From: a virus
Virus record (IMG/VR): IMGVR_UViG_3300032360_000049
Location: 1-25,036 of that record
DNA length: 25,036 nucleotides
Strand: one strand, 5' to 3'
Every line of letters begins with the position of its first letter. The first letter of the stretch is position 1. Positions 3,344 to 18,621 of the stretch are shown here, piece by piece. The notes below the pieces were generated by a model. It saw only the letters and a list, made by a program, of their open reading frames with translations. It did not search any database and was not told the origin of the DNA. The translations under genes were made by a program, and so were the position numbers.

Positions 3344-4327
3344 TTAATTTAAACTATTTTGTTGCTCATACTCACGTCTAGCGAGTATTTTAGCCTCTCT
3401 TGTTACTGTCGTATTTTTCATGGATTTTAAATGTTCTGACGCACTTTTAGGATTGTAAATAGTTAAACCAGAACTATTACATCTTATTATATCTGCCTCA
3501 TTAATTGTTGAACCACTCTCTTGAGCAAACTCAATAGCCTCATCAAGATATTTATAACTCTTTAAAACATCTTTAATAAAGTTAGTTTGTTTCAAAATGG
3601 ATTTAACCCATTTATAATGTGCCATGATTAATTGTCCTTTTTTCTGTTGCCACATCTCGAAAGTTTTATATTCCTCTCTCGATACAGCTATCTGCCTATC
3701 TCTACAATATTCACGACCAATTAAATCTAACTCATATTCCTTATCCCATTTATCTGCGTATGATGTTAGATTATTTCTTCCACTTGATGTTCCAAGATAC
3801 CTATCATTTGCGTCTTGAATTTTAGTCCAATGTGGATTACCAGATTTGCCCTCCATCTCGATTGTAATATCGGGATTACAATCTTTTTGTGCTTTTAGTT
3901 CATCTCTAAAATAAGCATAGCCAAAATCTCTTGAACATGGTTGATAGCCTTCCATTTCATCTTGGTCATCAATTCCATCATAATTTCCATTTAATCTGAA
4001 ATCAAAATGTTTAGAGATGTATTTATCTTCTTCGTTATCTTCTTCTGGTTTTCCCATATAACCAAAATGGAAACAACTATCCTTGGCAATAGTATTTACG
4101 TTAGGATATTTGTCTTGAAGATAATGTGCCATGTCCACGTCTTTGTGTGGATATTGTCTTGACACACATAGTTTAGCAAGTTCCCAAACTTTGTCTTGGA
4201 TTGCTTTGAAGTTTTCTCGTTCCTGGTCGAAAGCTTCTCTCTCTTGTGTGCGTTCTTGTTCGGCATAAGTTTTCATTTTAACTGTAACTTTATTCCGTTG
4301 TTCTTGATTTAGTCTTATTCTACTCAT
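3344..4327 (-). CDS. Hypothetical protein, 327 aa
   Basis: I do not recognise a family. The N-terminus is a charged helix rich in Gln, Glu and Arg (MSRIRLNQEQRNKVTVKMKT), probably coiled coil to about residue 50. A mixed region follows with C53 and C84, then an acidic stretch (EEDNEEDKY), a middle part rich in Tyr and Asp, and a Lys-rich C-terminus. There is no signal peptide or membrane segment. GAAAGG stands about 9 bases before the ATG. It is the first minus-strand gene to the left of the structured region at 4.39-4.99 kb, so it probably heads its own transcript from the promoter near 4362-4389. Confidence 0.8.
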   Translation of the reverse strand: MSRIRLNQEQRNKVTVKMKTYAEQERTQEREAFDQERENFKAIQDKVWELAKLCVSRQYPHKDVDMAHYLQDKYPNVNTIAKDSCFHFGYMGKPEEDNEEDKYISKHFDFRLNGNYDGIDDQDEMEGYQPCSRDFGYAYFRDELKAQKDCNPDITIEMEGKSGNPHWTKIQDANDRYLGTSSGRNNLTSYADKWDKEYELDLIGREYCRDRQIAVSREEYKTFEMWQQKKGQLIMAHYKWVKSILKQTNFIKDVLKSYKYLDEAIEFAQESGSTINEADIIRCNSSGLTIYNPKSASEHLKSMKNTTVTREAKILARREYEQQNSLN

Positions 4328-4361
4328 ATATGCCTTTCGTTTTATTTTGCATAAATAAAGT

Positions 4362-4389
4362 TTTATATCTTGACAATTCCTTTGTCAAG
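4362..4389 (-). promoter_or_regulatory. Promoter and 8-bp inverted repeat upstream of the 327-aa gene
   Basis: On the minus strand, TTGACA (4388-4383) and TATAAA (4367-4362) are separated by a short 15-bp spacer, upstream of the gene starting at 4327. The -35 is half of a perfect dyad CTTGACAA / TTGTCAAG (4369-4376 and 4382-4389), an operator-like arrangement. The short spacing lowers confidence in the promoter but not in the dyad. Confidence 0.45.
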
Positions 4390-4499
4390 CATTATGTTGG
4401 ATAAAGGCTCCTGGGATATGAGCCTTAATAATAACTGTCCTGGGACAACCTCAGGTTGCATCACACCCCAGTTCGCTGGCGTCTTTGTAACTTAGAGGA

Positions 4500-4579
4500 C
4501 TGATCCCAGATCTAAGTAGCGGTAACAGCTCCGGATATTCTAGATGCCCTCCGGTTAATGTACTTGGATCTGGGATCAG
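4500..4579. repeat. Long hairpin element 1 (ACTGATCCC family)
   Basis: The arms at 4500-4518 and 4561-4579 pair over 19 bp with one G-T pair (left arm CTGATCCCAGATCTAAGTA). The 42-base interior has two CCGG copies. Its arm core CTGATCCCAGAT recurs in elements 2 and 3. Confidence 0.8.
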
Positions 4580-4681
4580 ATGTTGTAACTGCGGGATATT
4601 AACCGCTATAACTCTGGATGCGCGCTTGTCATGACACAGCTAGTTTAATCGCCAGCGCACTAGCTCCAGCGTAGGACAACA

Positions 4682-4759
4682 ACTGATCCCTGATCCATAT
4701 TATTAGTGGCCAGTAGCAGGTCTCAATGTGGTTGCGAAGAGTATGGATCTGGGATCAGT
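4682..4759. repeat. Long hairpin element 2 (ACTGATCCC family)
   Basis: The arms at 4682-4701 and 4740-4759 pair over 20 positions with one T-T mismatch and one wobble (left arm begins ACTGATCCCTGATCCATA). The interior is 38 bases and differs from that of element 1. Confidence 0.8.
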
Positions 4760-4820
4760 AATATTTGGTAACATTATGTTACTTGTAGGATAATAAGGGA
4801 TATGATATAACCCAATTTGA

Positions 4821-4941
4821 TACTGATCCCTGAGTGGTGATGTAACGTATAGGAATTCGCTCAGACCGAGCCTATGTCCGAGGGTGCAATAAAGCTATGG
4901 TAAAGAAGTCGACCTCCCTAATCGCTACTCAGGGATCAGTA
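4821..4941. repeat. Long hairpin element 3 (ACTGATCCC family)
   Basis: The arms TACTGATCCCTGAGT (4821-4835) and its exact complement (4927-4941) pair perfectly for 15 bp. Pairing extends about six more with wobbles, to 4841 and 4921. The interior is about 79 bases, the longest of the three, and differs in sequence from those of elements 1 and 2. Confidence 0.8.
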
Positions 4942-4969
4942 ATAATGAGAAAAATCAGCGCTCTGCGCT

Positions 4970-4997
4970 GCAAGCTGCAAGCTTCAAGCTCCAAGCT
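4970..4997. repeat. Heptanucleotide array 1 (NCAAGCT x4)
   Basis: Four tandem 7-base units GCAAGCT, GCAAGCT, TCAAGCT, CCAAGCT end directly on the -35 box of the plus-strand promoter at 4997. Two further arrays of the same unit lie at 5433-5467 and 6507-6613. Confidence 0.85.
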
Positions 4998-5025
4998 TGA
5001 CAGTGACTAAATGATTTAGTAGGAT
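4997..5025 (+). promoter_or_regulatory. Plus-strand sigma70-like promoter with dyad in the spacer
   Basis: TTGACA (4997-5002), a 17-bp spacer and TAGGAT (5020-5025) precede the gene at 5045. The spacer contains a perfect 7-1-7 dyad ACTAAAT-G-ATTTAGT (5006-5020), which would suit a repressor or activator site. The -10 matches consensus at four of six positions. Confidence 0.6.
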
Positions 5026-5044
5026 GAATTAACAAAGGAGAAAT

Positions 5045-5350
5045 ATGAAACAATACAAAGAAGTAACTTGGAAAGGTAAAAAAATAAAACTACCTTTTCC
5101 GGATCCACGAGACAATGAGTCTGAGCTGTATGAGATGGAGGAAAAACAGAATAGGTTCACAGGGCAAAGTACTACAATGCCAAGCTTTGCCGCAGGTGTT
5201 TATGAAGTGATCCTTGGCCAGGAATATGCCGCAACAATTGATGACAAGAGATTAGGGACCGGCGGATCTAAAAAATGGGACGATGTACGTAAGGGCCTAG
5301 GCTGGTTCAGACGTTATTTCGCAGAACAATACATGGTGGTTTTAGACTGA
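5045..5350 (+). CDS. Hypothetical protein, 101 aa
   Basis: The product begins MKQYKEVTWKGKKIKLPFPD and ends with an aromatic basic segment (GWFRRYFAEQYMVVLD). It is compact and soluble with no motif I can name. GGAG lies six bases before the ATG and a good promoter lies upstream. It leads the plus-strand island and is bracketed by heptanucleotide arrays on both sides. Codons here use more G and C than in the AT-rich minus-strand genes around it, which fits a module of different origin. Function unknown. Confidence 0.8.
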   Translation: MKQYKEVTWKGKKIKLPFPDPRDNESELYEMEEKQNRFTGQSTTMPSFAAGVYEVILGQEYAATIDDKRLGTGGSKKWDDVRKGLGWFRRYFAEQYMVVLD

Positions 5351-5432: not shown

Positions 5433-5467
5433 CCAAGCTGCAAGCTCCAAGCGGCAAGCTGCAAGCG
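5433..5467. repeat. Heptanucleotide array 2 (NCAAGCN x5)
   Basis: Five tandem units CCAAGCT, GCAAGCT, CCAAGCG, GCAAGCT, GCAAGCG lie in the gap between the plus-strand genes ending at 5350 and starting at 5519. Flanking GGCGCC (5420-5425) and GCGCC (5465-5469) can pair around the array. On the minus strand this closes into a hairpin followed by seven T. Confidence 0.85.
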
Positions 5468-6468: not shown

Positions 6469-6619
6469 ACACCCCAAGTACTACGCAGAGATGAGAGCTG
6501 AGAGACGCAAGCTCCAAGCGTCAAGCCTCAAGCGCCAAGCTTCTGAAGCATCAAGCTGCAAGCCCCAAGCCCCGAACAACAAGCGTCAAGCTTCAAGCCG
6601 CAAGCGTCAAGCTCCATGA
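6452..6619 (+). CDS. Repeat-encoded basic peptide, 55 aa
   Basis: The ORF begins MTHEYKHPKYYAEMRAERRK. After about residue 20 it is the translation of the heptanucleotide array, a run of LQASSLKRQAS-type heptapeptides that is strongly basic and probably unstructured or helical. The start overlaps the previous ORF. Its 3' half is antisense to the end of the nuclease gene on the minus strand. It could be a true coding sequence extended by repeat growth, or an ORF kept open because the repeat has no stop in this frame. The non-repeat first 20 residues favour a real gene. Confidence 0.5.
   Translation: MTHEYKHPKYYAEMRAERRKLQASSLKRQASEASSCKPQAPNNKRQASSRKRQAP
6507..6613. repeat. Heptanucleotide array 3 (NCAAGCN, about 13 recognisable units)
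   Basis: This is the longest of the three arrays, with units such as GCAAGCT, CCAAGCG, TCAAGCC, TCAAGCG and CCAAGCT from 6507. It is interrupted near 6542-6550 and 6572-6579 and ends with TCAAGCT at 6607-6613. It underlies the ends of two convergent genes. Seven is not a multiple of three, so 21 bases (three units) give one heptapeptide on either strand. Confidence 0.9.
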
Positions 6620-6905
6620 TCCGCGAACCACGGAACATGTGAACAAGTTTCGAGGACCTCGGACCATGGCTCTCGGCTATGATGAATGTGTTGTGCGGAT
6701 GTGTCTTATGAAATGCAATTTGGTGTGCAGAAAATTTGAGTTTATTCCCTCGGGTAACTTTTAACTCAACAGTGAAAAATGTGCCAAAACTATTATAGCC
6801 CAATAGATCAGGAGTACCCAAAGAGCTAAGGTTTTCAATCCTATTCCAGGTAATTCCTTTAGAATTTTTACGAAGTTTTTGGTATAATTTTGCCTCTGGA
6901 CCCAT
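6528..6905 (-). CDS. VRR-NUC-type PD-(D/E)XK nuclease with repeat-derived tail
   Basis: A 125-residue nuclease probably acting on branched or damaged DNA. The fold signature is visible: an early acidic residue (MGPEAKLYQKL), GTPDLLGY (residues 30-37) with the catalytic Asp, and FFTVELKVTRG (43-53) with the E-x-K pair. The conserved Q of SAHQIAFHK follows. The last 28 residues (from MELDACGLK) are read through the heptanucleotide array and look appended rather than part of the fold. No strong Shine-Dalgarno is seen. The role in phage recombination or host DNA breakdown is inferred. Confidence 0.85.
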   Translation of the reverse strand: MGPEAKLYQKLRKNSKGITWNRIENLSSLGTPDLLGYNSFGTFFTVELKVTRGNKLKFSAHQIAFHKTHPHNTFIIAESHGPRSSKLVHMFRGSRIMELDACGLKLDACCSGLGACSLMLQKLGA

Positions 6906-10037: not shown

Positions 10038-10176
10038 GTTTTAGATTCTTCTCCTTGTCCTTCATTAATCCTTTATGTATTTCATCTATATTAGACCAAG
10101 TAATCTCTGAGTATCGTTTACGATACTTATCATTTGAGACTCTAGATTTTCCATCCCACTTAGGTTTTTGGGTCAT
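10024..10176 (-). CDS. Small basic conserved phage protein, 50 aa
   Basis: The ORF begins MTQKPKWDGKSRVSNDKYRK and continues YSEITWSNIDEIHKGL with a Lys-rich tail. The KPxWDGKSR opening followed by YRKRY resembles a small protein I have met often in marine phages, function unknown. It overlaps the SET gene upstream by 17 bases and the exonuclease gene downstream by 14, consistent with coupled translation. Confidence 0.7.
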   Translation of the reverse strand: MTQKPKWDGKSRVSNDKYRKRYSEITWSNIDEIHKGLMKDKEKNLKHEKK

Positions 10177-10513
10177 ACATTTTATATTTTAATGTTAATT
10201 CATCTCCTTCTTCAATATCTTCTATGACTACTAAATTCCATTTATCAAAGCCGGGTCTAATTCTAATCTGGTTGCGTACGCAATTGGGCGTCTCGCTATG
10301 ATTAATAAATCCTCCTAAAGGAGTTCTAATCATTTGATTATCAATACGATAATGAGATTCTCCAAGTTCAGCTCCAGCAACGAGTCGTCTGGTCGTGAAG
10401 ACTCCTTGGCCCGAGATCCCTGAGTCGGCGACCGTGAGTCCTGAAGGCAACGGATGGTATTGCTTTAATCTATCTAGATCATGATATTCTTTTATGTCTT
10501 CGTCATTCATCAT
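10160..10513 (-). CDS. SET-domain protein, first of two
   Basis: SET domains are S-adenosylmethionine-dependent protein lysine methyltransferases. The 117-residue product has the N-terminal SET motif SGISGQGVFTTRRLVAG (31-47), the cofactor-binding FINHSETPNC (69-78) and the closing GDELTLKYKMYD (103-114). It is a minimal SET with no pre- or post-SET Cys clusters. Its target could be a host or phage protein, and activity is not certain from sequence alone. It overlaps the HNH-like gene upstream by ATGA. A second SET protein is encoded at 18241-18621. Confidence 0.88.
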   Translation of the reverse strand: MMNDEDIKEYHDLDRLKQYHPLPSGLTVADSGISGQGVFTTRRLVAGAELGESHYRIDNQMIRTPLGGFINHSETPNCVRNQIRIRPGFDKWNLVVIEDIEEGDELTLKYKMYDPKT

Positions 10514-14826: not shown

Positions 14827-15165
14827 TTAGTTGGTTAGGGGGTTTGACGTGGAGACCTTAATCTCCTCTATTTGAACTTTTAGTAATTCGATTTCTTTAG
14901 CATTAACTAAAGGTTTAGTATGATTATGCTTAACTGGATGCTCGTGTGAAGTGTCCACACTTTCTAATTTTGCTACTTTTTCCTCTAACACTTTTATTTC
15001 TGATAAAAAACTCATATCAATGCTTTTAGATGCACCTTCTAGTACTTCTAACTTAGTCATAACCTCACCATACTTAATGAAACCACCACCGATTGCAACG
15101 ATGGCTGCGATCAATGCAGCGATTCCTGCGAGCTGGTCTTTTAAATTAAATTTTTTATCAGCCAT
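14827..15165 (-). CDS. Membrane-anchored coiled-coil protein, 112 aa
   Basis: Topology matches the 135-residue protein: a TM segment (QLAGIAALIAAIVAIGGGFI) near residues 11-30, then coiled coil (FLSEIKVLEEKVAKLESV), and a His-rich patch (HEHPVKHNH) before a second helix. It ends two bases before the lipoprotein start and overlaps the end of the Glu-rich gene. Function unknown. Confidence 0.75.
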   Translation of the reverse strand: MADKKFNLKDQLAGIAALIAAIVAIGGGFIKYGEVMTKLEVLEGASKSIDMSFLSEIKVLEEKVAKLESVDTSHEHPVKHNHTKPLVNAKEIELLKVQIEEIKVSTSNPLTN

Positions 15166-16702
15166 TTTTTAACATCTCCAGTTCATATAAAAGCCGTTGC
15201 TTCTTAATATTTATTTCATTAAGTTTTCTGGCTTTGATTTCGATCTTATCATTTTGAATATAACTTGCAAGATTAGTATTTGGGTATATTTGTCTAAAAT
15301 CAAAGATATTTAACTGGTCTAAATATATGTCTTTTGGCTTATAAAAGACTGCATTTTGATACATGTCCAAAGATGCCTGCTCACTTGTCATCGCTTCCAT
15401 TTTTATAATATTTTTGATAGCTAAATTTTTAGCAACATCCTTAATATCCTTGTCAATCTTATCCATTATTCTAGAGAGATTTTTAACGATAGCTTTTTTC
15501 TGTTGTATCTTTTTTTGTTTGGCAAGCTTCTTAGCCTGAAGAGTGGATGTTGCAGCAGTTTCGCTAGTAGGTTCCTCTTCTTGTGCTTCTTCTTCAAACG
15601 TTTCTTCATCCGCTGCTTCTACCATTTCTGTGGACTCTTCTTCAACTGCTTCTTCAGCCATTTCCGTAGGTTCTTCCTCCATAACCTCTTCTTCGGCCAT
15701 TTCTGTAGGTTCTTCAGTCATTTCTTCTTCCACCATAGGCTCTTCTTCCTCAAATGTTTCAGTCATCATTGGAGATTCTTCTTCCATTATTTCTTCTTCA
15801 GAAACCATAGGTAAGAATGTTTCAACGATTTCGTTAGTTTCTTCATAAATTTCCTCCATTTCTGTGTCTGTAAATTCAAACATTGGACCATCTTCAAATG
15901 CCATATCTTCGTCTTCCATAAAGAACTCTTCATCCATCTCCATAAAGAATTCCTCTATGAATTCTTCTGCAAATGTAAATGTTTCCATCTCCATCTCAAA
16001 CTGGGGCTCTTCATTAAAAGTGAAAGTTTCTTCTTCAAAGAAGAATTCTTCCATGTCTTCAAAGACTTCTTCTTGTAAATCTTCTAGAGCTTCTTCAATA
16101 TCATCTAATGCGTCTGATGCATCTTGTTCTAGTACAGTATCATCGTAAGTTACAGTTAAGATAGGTTGTTTTAAATCTGCTGCTCTATGTGTTCCACTAT
16201 ATGAAGCACTACCAGATGGACTAGAATTAAATTCAAATCTAGCCTTGATATCAAAATCAGTTTGAGTGTTTGAACCTATTGAATAAGTATTATTACCTGT
16301 ATTTTGAAAGGCACATCCATTAAAAGTTGCACATGATCCTGTAATTGTTTTAGTTTGAGTTGTAACATTACCATCACTATTAGTTATAATCTGTTTCATT
16401 ACAACATCTTGGTCATTACTATTCCAAAACCATACCTTAGCAGATTGATTAGATGTAAAGCCATTATTGAATTGGTCTGCAGATATATCTACGTCATCCA
16501 CTAGACTATAGGCTTCTGTATTTTCTACATAACCCTCGTCTATTCCAGCGATGGTTCCTGTTCCGTGATTACTGGATAATTGGCCCGTCCAGTTATTTCC
16601 TGATGTGAAAGTTTGACTTAGAATATTATTTGTTGTTACTTCTTCTGCTGAAGTCGTAAGGGTTAACGTCATCAGCAAAACGGTCAATAGCAAAGTGCGC
16701 AT
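15158..16702 (-). CDS. Exported Glu-rich low-complexity protein, 514 aa
   Basis: A clear signal peptide (MRTLLLTVLLMTLTLTTSAE) is followed by a Ser, Asn and Thr rich domain (to about residue 185) with a Cys pair (GSCATFNGCAF). Then come about 200 residues dominated by Glu with Phe, Met and Thr (runs of EEPTEMAEEEVMEEE type). The C-terminus is basic and helical (KKIQQKKAIVKNLSRIMDK), ending in a Lys and Leu rich coiled coil. AGGAG precedes the ATG. The repeats make it a likely extended or calcium-binding envelope or virion protein; this is inference. Reverse-frame ORFs here are shadows of the Glu codons. Confidence 0.85.
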   Translation of the reverse strand: MRTLLLTVLLMTLTLTTSAEEVTTNNILSQTFTSGNNWTGQLSSNHGTGTIAGIDEGYVENTEAYSLVDDVDISADQFNNGFTSNQSAKVWFWNSNDQDVVMKQIITNSDGNVTTQTKTITGSCATFNGCAFQNTGNNTYSIGSNTQTDFDIKARFEFNSSPSGSASYSGTHRAADLKQPILTVTYDDTVLEQDASDALDDIEEALEDLQEEVFEDMEEFFFEEETFTFNEEPQFEMEMETFTFAEEFIEEFFMEMDEEFFMEDEDMAFEDGPMFEFTDTEMEEIYEETNEIVETFLPMVSEEEIMEEESPMMTETFEEEEPMVEEEMTEEPTEMAEEEVMEEEPTEMAEEAVEEESTEMVEAADEETFEEEAQEEEPTSETAATSTLQAKKLAKQKKIQQKKAIVKNLSRIMDKIDKDIKDVAKNLAIKNIIKMEAMTSEQASLDMYQNAVFYKPKDIYLDQLNIFDFRQIYPNTNLASYIQNDKIEIKARKLNEINIKKQRLLYELEMLKNG

Positions 16703-18240: not shown

Positions 18241-18621
18241 TTAAATATATTTATATTTTTCATGATCGCTGTCTAGTGTTTTATAATTACACCTCAATTC
18301 TTCGTCTTTGTCAATATCTTTCAAAGCAAATCCAGCATGAGAAATATTAGGATTATTAGAGTGATTAATAAATCTATCCTGATCTAAAGATACATAAAGA
18401 TGATCCGATCCAAGAGGTTCCTCATAACCATAAGTCAATAAAAAGTTACAAATAACTTTAGGATAAGTCAAAACCTCTTTTTTTGAAAAATTTACCTCAA
18501 ATTTTTTAGCTAACTGAGAATCATAATCACAAATCTGAGAACCTTTTTTAATAGGTGTATTTGCAAAAACTCCGATACCGTGGATTTTACTTCGGCTTAA
18601 GTAGGTATCGAGTAAGATCAT
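18241..18621 (-). CDS. SET-domain protein, second of two
   Basis: A 126-residue SET protein with SRSKIHGIGVFANTPIKKG (9-27), DRFINHSNNPNIS (82-94) and KDEELRCNYKTLD (105-117), the three regions expected for cofactor and lysine binding. It is diverged in sequence from the SET protein at 10160-10513 and has a longer middle (residues 30-80). That points to distinct targets rather than a recent copy. It is encoded just before the 217-residue gene. Methyltransferase activity is inferred from the motifs. Confidence 0.88.
   Translation of the reverse strand: MILLDTYLSRSKIHGIGVFANTPIKKGSQICDYDSQLAKKFEVNFSKKEVLTYPKVICNFLLTYGYEEPLGSDHLYVSLDQDRFINHSNNPNISHAGFALKDIDKDEELRCNYKTLDSDHEKYKYI

Follow-up and report, generated by a model that had tools for sequence, protein, structure and literature searches.

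A candidate modular structured RNA with interchangeable apical cassettes in a lineage of pelagiphages

We describe what appears to be a new, modular, structured non-coding RNA, probably acting in trans, whose apical cassettes have been swapped between phages; we lean towards this statement as a whole, and its parts are graded separately below. It was recognised in a 25,036-nucleotide stretch of viral DNA (the window), a record whose relatives are the pelagiphages HTVC027P and HTVC033P. The structure, strand, promoter, lineage distribution and apical exchange are established by comparison between related loci, that is, at the level of sequence.

The hairpin region sits between the small and large terminase genes. 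An earlier note, made from the letters of this DNA, had placed it in a non-coding setting between divergent transcription units, which is what we find: no ORF of at least 60 aa lies between the divergent genes at 3344-4327 (−) and 5045-5350 (+). A protein-coding explanation of the hairpin region was rejected for the same reason. The features of the locus, each with the evidence by which it was recognised, are as follows.

3344-4327 (− strand): gene2, a divergent 327-aa gene that marks synteny on the opposite side (ORF list)
4370-4398 (+ strand): promoter P1 of the RNA, TTGACA-17-TATGTT (same element across loci)
4405-4998 (+ strand): probable extent of the structured RNA (promoter position, module array and next promoter at 4997)
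4449-4498 (+ strand): D0, the first stem module, abutting hairpin A (fold z −3.5 versus shuffles; upstream pairing)
4500-4579 (+ strand): hairpin A, element 1 of the earlier note (inverted repeats, arm motif, fold z)
4580-4681 (+ strand): D2 module, a junction domain of ~105 nt with P1, a P2 hairpin (GCGG/CCGC) and P5 (covariation)
4682-4759 (+ strand): hairpin B, element 2 of the earlier note (inverted repeats; cassette also in loci L022 and L023)
4760-4821 (+ strand): spacer between hairpins B and C, with a weak promoter-like site at 4765-4794 (similar segments in relatives)
4821-4941 (+ strand): hairpin C, element 3 of the earlier note (inverted repeats; related cassette in L020 and L021)
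4971-4996 (+ strand): CAAGCTN heptamer repeats that lead into the next promoter (counted across loci)
4997-5025 (+ strand): promoter P2 of the downstream operon, TTGACA-17-TAGGAT (conserved across loci)
5045-5350 (+ strand): first downstream gene in the same direction, 101 aa (ORF list)

The RNA probably starts about 7 nt past the −10 box, which gives the first position of the extent listed. Pfam and PHROG searches with the 101-aa protein returned no match, and gene2 has no Pfam match and a single weak PHROG match. In HTVC027P the first gene after the structured RNA is gp34 (L035, 5279-5419; 46 aa); at that length, its published assignment (PMC12753301) to a peptidase C33-associated domain seems doubtful. 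A segment nearly identical to the B-C spacer is present in L020 and L021, which lack hairpin B, and in L150 a similar segment stands before a small ORF.

A repeat search located the arms of hairpin A at 4500-4518 and 4561-4579 (19 nt, 95%, 42 nt between them), those of hairpin B at 4682-4704 and 4737-4759 (23 nt, 87%, 32 nt between) and those of hairpin C at 4821-4841 and 4921-4941 (21 nt, 90%, 79 nt between). Exactly six copies of the motif CTGATCCCWGA are present in the 25,036 bases of the record, three per direction, and all of them lie within hairpin arms; the reversed control pattern has no match in the whole record. The three long hairpins with a common arm that had been seen by eye are thus real. 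Of the interior lengths first given for them (42, 38 and 79), the first and last hold and the second is 32 nt by the present count; arms of the proposed 15-20 bp are present, but pairing extends past the conserved block. On folding, hairpins A, B and C (z = −5.7, −6.1 and −5.3) and the whole region 4330-5044 (z = −10.7) are all far more stable than their shuffles. Hairpins B and C are not confined to the window's phage.

Across loci the basal hairpin stem has the RNA consensus CUGAUCCC-U-GRUCC / GGAYC-U-GGGAUCAG, and the arm has the DNA consensus CTGATCCC[T]GRTCC. The outer 8-10 bp hardly vary, so that a protein recognising the arm is possible; most loci were collected by the exact arm pattern and this constancy is partly by construction, but among loci found via gene2 alone both arms are exact in 31 of 36 hairpins. 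Further in, at stem positions 11-18, pairing among 235 hairpins with distinct interiors is far above that of shuffles and is achieved by many pair types. An independent count over 54 arm pairs gave 98% paired cells and nine pairs in which both partners had changed; the covariation score was 0.475, versus 0.131 when shuffled (0/500). Together with the covariation of the D2 module described below, this agrees with the suggestion in the earlier note that the stems are kept under selection, and supports the structured RNA that was among the options it listed.

The pairs that are not Watson-Crick indicate which strand folds. At stem positions 11-18, read on the window's + strand, G.U pairs outnumber A.C pairs by 159 to 20, whereas both kinds are about equally frequent in the apical region (252 G.U versus 238 A.C); the bias is also seen in loci found via gene2 alone (20 versus 4, p = 0.0015). 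Read on the gene2 strand, stem position 9 is A.A in 326 hairpins and never T.T; the elements never flip and have one orientation. The + strand of the window very probably gives a structured RNA. A folded single strand of DNA would likewise favour G.T over A.C, and we prefer RNA to folded DNA because the promoter reads on the strand that folds.

The array alternates between hairpins and other stem modules. In the region of D0, the last 8 nt ahead of the first hairpin pair with upstream sequence (6.7 versus 5.3 matches in 130 nonredundant loci). The D2 family, present in 83 loci, has three helices with changes on both sides (93.6% paired; covariation score 0.455 versus 0.182 shuffled, 0/500), and the minimum-energy fold of the window's own D2 contains those three helices. 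RNAalifold applied to the mixed D2 alignment recovered one helix only, since the three subclasses align poorly, and these counts were made on a named structure instead. Within 130 nt past the last hairpin, a truncated third arm, CTGRTC, is found in 61% of 139 loci versus 4% of shuffles, and the module that precedes it has pairing ends. Because this truncated copy follows the last hairpin, the counter-arm GGGATCAG could pair with either neighbouring copy of the arm.

As a separate observation, the motif AUUA[CG]UG ... G[GUA]GAAGAG, which looks like a defined internal-loop motif, occurs in 11 of 373 distinct modules where 0.05 would be expected from shuffles. It is found in L192, L193, L028, L011 and others, both inside and between hairpins, and a looser form is present in hairpin B (4682-4759).

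Upstream of the first hairpin, a TTGACA..TGTCAA palindrome that includes the −35 box (window 4370-4388) is present in 105 of 159 loci. In the rows inspected by eye the palindrome is 16-19 nt long, and a shorter palindrome is followed by more bases such that the spacer to the TATATA-like box is held at 17 nt. The promoter bears on the possibility that what folds is single-stranded DNA of the + strand, while the phage genome is being replicated or packaged, as an origin, primase site or packaging signal. The location between the two terminase genes and the fixed orientation would suit such an element, as would the G.T pairs that DNA also tolerates. Nevertheless, a promoter of fixed spacing reads into the array, D2 is a complex, RNA-like junction domain with covariation, and the position is shifted in phage 023Pt_psg01. 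GC skew across the window follows gene direction with no switch at this site, although this is a weak test. We therefore consider a DNA element improbable. Of the overall reading in the earlier note, the selected stems, the structured RNA and its lack of a family name (see below) stand, but the phage origin is unsupported, given the course of the GC skew and the promoter on the folded strand.

Promoter P2 of the downstream operon is also conserved and lies just before the first gene, and at least two CAAGC units stand immediately ahead of this TTGACA-17-TAGGAT element in 50 of 52 loci. The heptanucleotide repeats that had been reported near the hairpins correspond to the CAAGCTN heptamers at 4971-4996; in the window as a whole this heptamer has 13 matches versus none in shuffles. 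CAAGCTN arrays lie at window positions 4971-4996, 5434-5466 and 6508-6612 and run into the coding end of the ORF at 6528-6905.

An intrinsic terminator between the array and P2 was found in 1 of 52 loci, the same as in shuffles, and the structured RNA may thus continue into the downstream operon. None of hairpins A, B and C was listed as an intrinsic terminator (a G+C stem followed by a T run). In L181 the truncated third arm past the last hairpin is directly followed by TTTTTTTT, and the counter-arm with this third arm would form a terminator there. An attenuator made of the truncated third arm and a U run was rejected as a general feature, having been seen in L181 but not generally in other loci.

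The main alternative to a trans-acting RNA is that the modules form a long 5' leader acting in cis, with transcripts from P1 running through them into the operon (5045 onwards; gp34-gp33 in HTVC027P). The hairpins would then control termination, processing, stability or translation of the mRNA, for example by RNA antitermination. The modules are on the same strand as the operon and directly upstream of it, with no intrinsic terminator ahead of P2, and the complementary copies (arm, counter-arm and truncated arm) would permit alternative pairings. In HTVC027P, gp33 and gp34 have a time course of their own, constituting a separate temporal expression class that is high at 6-9 h (PMC12753301). 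However, a conserved promoter belonging to the operon itself follows the CAAGC heptamers, the first downstream gene varies between phages, and exchange of apical parts in arrays of one to five hairpins would be odd for a cis-acting switch. On these grounds a leader is a doubtful reading, although one to be taken seriously.

Pattern scans of viral contigs listed at least 413 hairpins in at least 247 loci. Among these matches, 410 of the hairpins and 244 of the loci belong to a single pelagiphage lineage of the HTVC023P/HTVC027P type, and their usual place is the same divergent intergenic region. Hairpins of the lineage adjoin gene clusters encoding a 202-aa GP88-family protein, the 327-aa gene and the small and large terminases, and most loci with a relative of the 327-aa gene carry hairpins just upstream of that gene. 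Some of the IMG/VR contigs are near duplicates, and the key counts use distinct interiors or nonredundant segments. Arrays were counted to contain one to five hairpins, L087 has an array of six, and the cultured pelagiphage HTVC027P carries one hairpin. The element is not universal in the lineage: L019 has no hairpins, the version in L001 has diverged, with compensatory changes in its arms, 023Pt_psg01 has one hairpin displaced to a position upstream of the GP88 gene, and neither an arm pair nor D2 was found in 8 kb around the terminase gene of HTVC023P. When the hairpin region was compared by BLAST with 50,697 phage records, HTVC027P was the sole match beyond chance; the six-hairpin array of L087 had no match in the same records, and for a longer locus most matches were to coding genes of relatives. 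This type of pelagiphage is widespread, and its host, SAR11, is among the most abundant bacteria of the ocean.

In 84,980 cellular genomes the arm pattern had 26 matches versus about 29 expected by chance, an expectation estimated from the arm pattern and the amount of sequence scanned. One of the 26 is on a phage contig of the same lineage in a Flavobacterium single-cell assembly. Copies of the hairpin in host genomes were rejected: cellular matches are at the level of chance and the only real one is on a phage contig. The hairpin is therefore a phage feature. The contig in question (L319; KB911123.1, 1-6564), filed under Flavobacterium single-cell genome AAA160-P02, carries the promoter, D0, a hairpin, D2, the GP88 gene and the small terminase gene, and may come from an infected cell, from a virus sorted along with the cell or from contamination.

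Hairpin interiors appear to have a history different from that of their neighbours. Interiors that are 85-100% identical are found in phages whose neighbouring gene products are only 26-60% identical, and in 61 such pairs, whose hairpins are 88-100% identical inside, identity falls to ~0.3 in the first 10 nt beyond the arms and then to the chance level of 0.25 on both sides. The cassette of hairpin B is 98% identical over its 52-nt interior in L022 and L023, where the gene2 protein is only 54% identical. That of hairpin C is 90% identical, with compensatory changes, in L020 and L021 (gene2 55% identical), and here the likeness leaks 10-20 nt past the right edge. Conversely, both 25-nt flanks are in common in 46 pairs of loci, 11 of which, with HTVC027P among them, have unrelated interiors; neither the 61 nor the 46 pairs are all independent of one another. 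HTVC027P, L120 and L070 are nearly letter-for-letter alike in the promoter, D0, outer arms and D2 core but not in the apical portions of hairpin and D2, and chimeric assembly does not explain the case of HTVC027P because this phage is an isolate. In addition, L007 and L237 have a module in common that is enclosed by hairpin arms in one of the two phages and stands between hairpins in the other, and so do L218 and L304.

From these comparisons it is very likely that apical cassettes have been exchanged between phages, a natural experiment on interchangeable RNA parts. Since modules and arms are shared while interiors differ, the basal stems would be a framework on which the upper parts are interchangeable. 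The exchanges might have occurred by recombination at the arms, or by recombination anywhere with selection for well-folded products.

The sharp boundaries of the cassettes at the inverted arms also bring to mind tiny mobile elements, similar to MITEs, REPINs or Rickettsia palindromic elements, which would insert in hairpin form and have conserved ends. Copy number varies, and some sites hold other short sequences where a hairpin would be, as such elements would predict. Yet nearly all copies are in one intergenic region, in one orientation and in one phage lineage; swaps change the inside while the arms stay; a single module can lie within an arm pair or between hairpins; and no transposase was identified. 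Insertion of mobile elements is thus highly improbable. Even less probable is that the hairpins are non-functional debris in a recombination hot spot. Their content is hypervariable and the relative L019 lacks the element altogether, but strong covariation, conserved promoter spacing and fixed orientation are hard to reconcile with debris.

Returning to the structured RNA, we propose that one RNA would be transcribed from the window's + strand, starting at the promoter at 4370-4398, as a string of stem modules separated by few linker bases or none. The basal stems (those of the hairpins, the D2 core and the D0 stem) would form a constant framework, and the parts above them would be cassettes passed whole from phage to phage by recombination. 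Transcription itself, the position at which the RNA ends, its partner and the benefit to the phage are elements of this proposal that we infer. The RNA would act in trans inside the infected SAR11 cell, a point on which we are evenly balanced. The invariant CUGAUCCCUG outer stem, with its U.U mismatch, might be bound by a host or phage protein or might join modules. The changing tips might be under diversifying selection, as would be expected if they decoyed or antagonised a host factor that itself varies, or if they were a set of target-recognition loops; they could instead reflect a lack of constraint. Tentatively, and with less than even confidence, we suggest a non-coding RNA akin to a variable region, in which exchange of apical cassettes at the bases of stems supplies a large combinatorial repertoire in an arms race with host factors.

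The published account of the HTVC027P infection transcriptome deals with genes only and makes no mention of intergenic or non-coding RNA (PMC12753301), and no mention of such an RNA was found in the open-access papers on these phages that were searched. A structured RNA would thus have been overlooked in pelagiphage annotation and in one infection transcriptome; with the cultured pair HTVC027P and HTCC1062, its expression and structure are directly testable.

No named family was known to the earlier note, and likewise the Rfam 15 covariance models gave no match at the gathering threshold in the window. With E up to 10, region 4330-5060 had a single weak snoRNA match, far below threshold and on the opposite strand. 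Models of GOLLD and ROOL had no match in the window, and no tRNA or tmRNA was found in its 25 kb. These two are nevertheless nearest in kind, being large multi-helix RNAs of phages and prophages whose function is unknown, as here. GOLLD is a large phage RNA whose expression rises during phage lysis and whose 5' part is less conserved (PMC12286853). GOLLD and ROOL often lie near tRNA islands, whereas the window has no tRNA gene, and of these RNAs only the one described here is characterised by exchanged apical cassettes on constant stems.

Other systems share single aspects. Like the hairpin RNA, RNA II/RNA I of ColE1 is promoter-driven, spans several hundred bases and has constant stems with fast-changing loops; the hairpin RNA differs in swapping whole cassettes rather than acquiring point changes in loops, and no plasmid-type origin was seen. 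The put RNA antiterminators of HK022 are likewise hairpins directly downstream of a phage promoter but comprise two defined stem-loops, whereas the pelagiphage array combines junction domains with one to five hairpins whose tips are unrelated. Integron attC sites combine a folded single strand, conserved arm ends, mismatches, a variable interior and cassette exchange, all of which the pelagiphage hairpins share. In place of the attC core RYYYAAC/GTTRRRY, however, they have the arm CTGATCCC, their cassettes contain no gene and no integrase was found. Mitochondrial GC clusters and RHEs, Rickettsia palindromic elements and REPINs are also short inverted-repeat units with variable interiors; by contrast with such mobile hairpins, those described here show no dispersed insertion, being restricted to one locus, orientation and lineage, and retain their arms while interiors change. 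To our knowledge, cassette exchange at the bases of helices within a non-coding RNA is undescribed, and apical cassette exchange on constant stems is what defines the pelagiphage RNA.

Elsewhere in the window, two ORFs at 10160-10513 and 18241-18621 (−) appear by eye to be SET-domain-like (motifs FINHSETPNC and FINHSNNPN), and such proteins are, as far as we know, unusual in a phage. A further ORF of 514 aa (15158-16702, −) contains a long acidic repeat region rich in Glu, Met and Phe.
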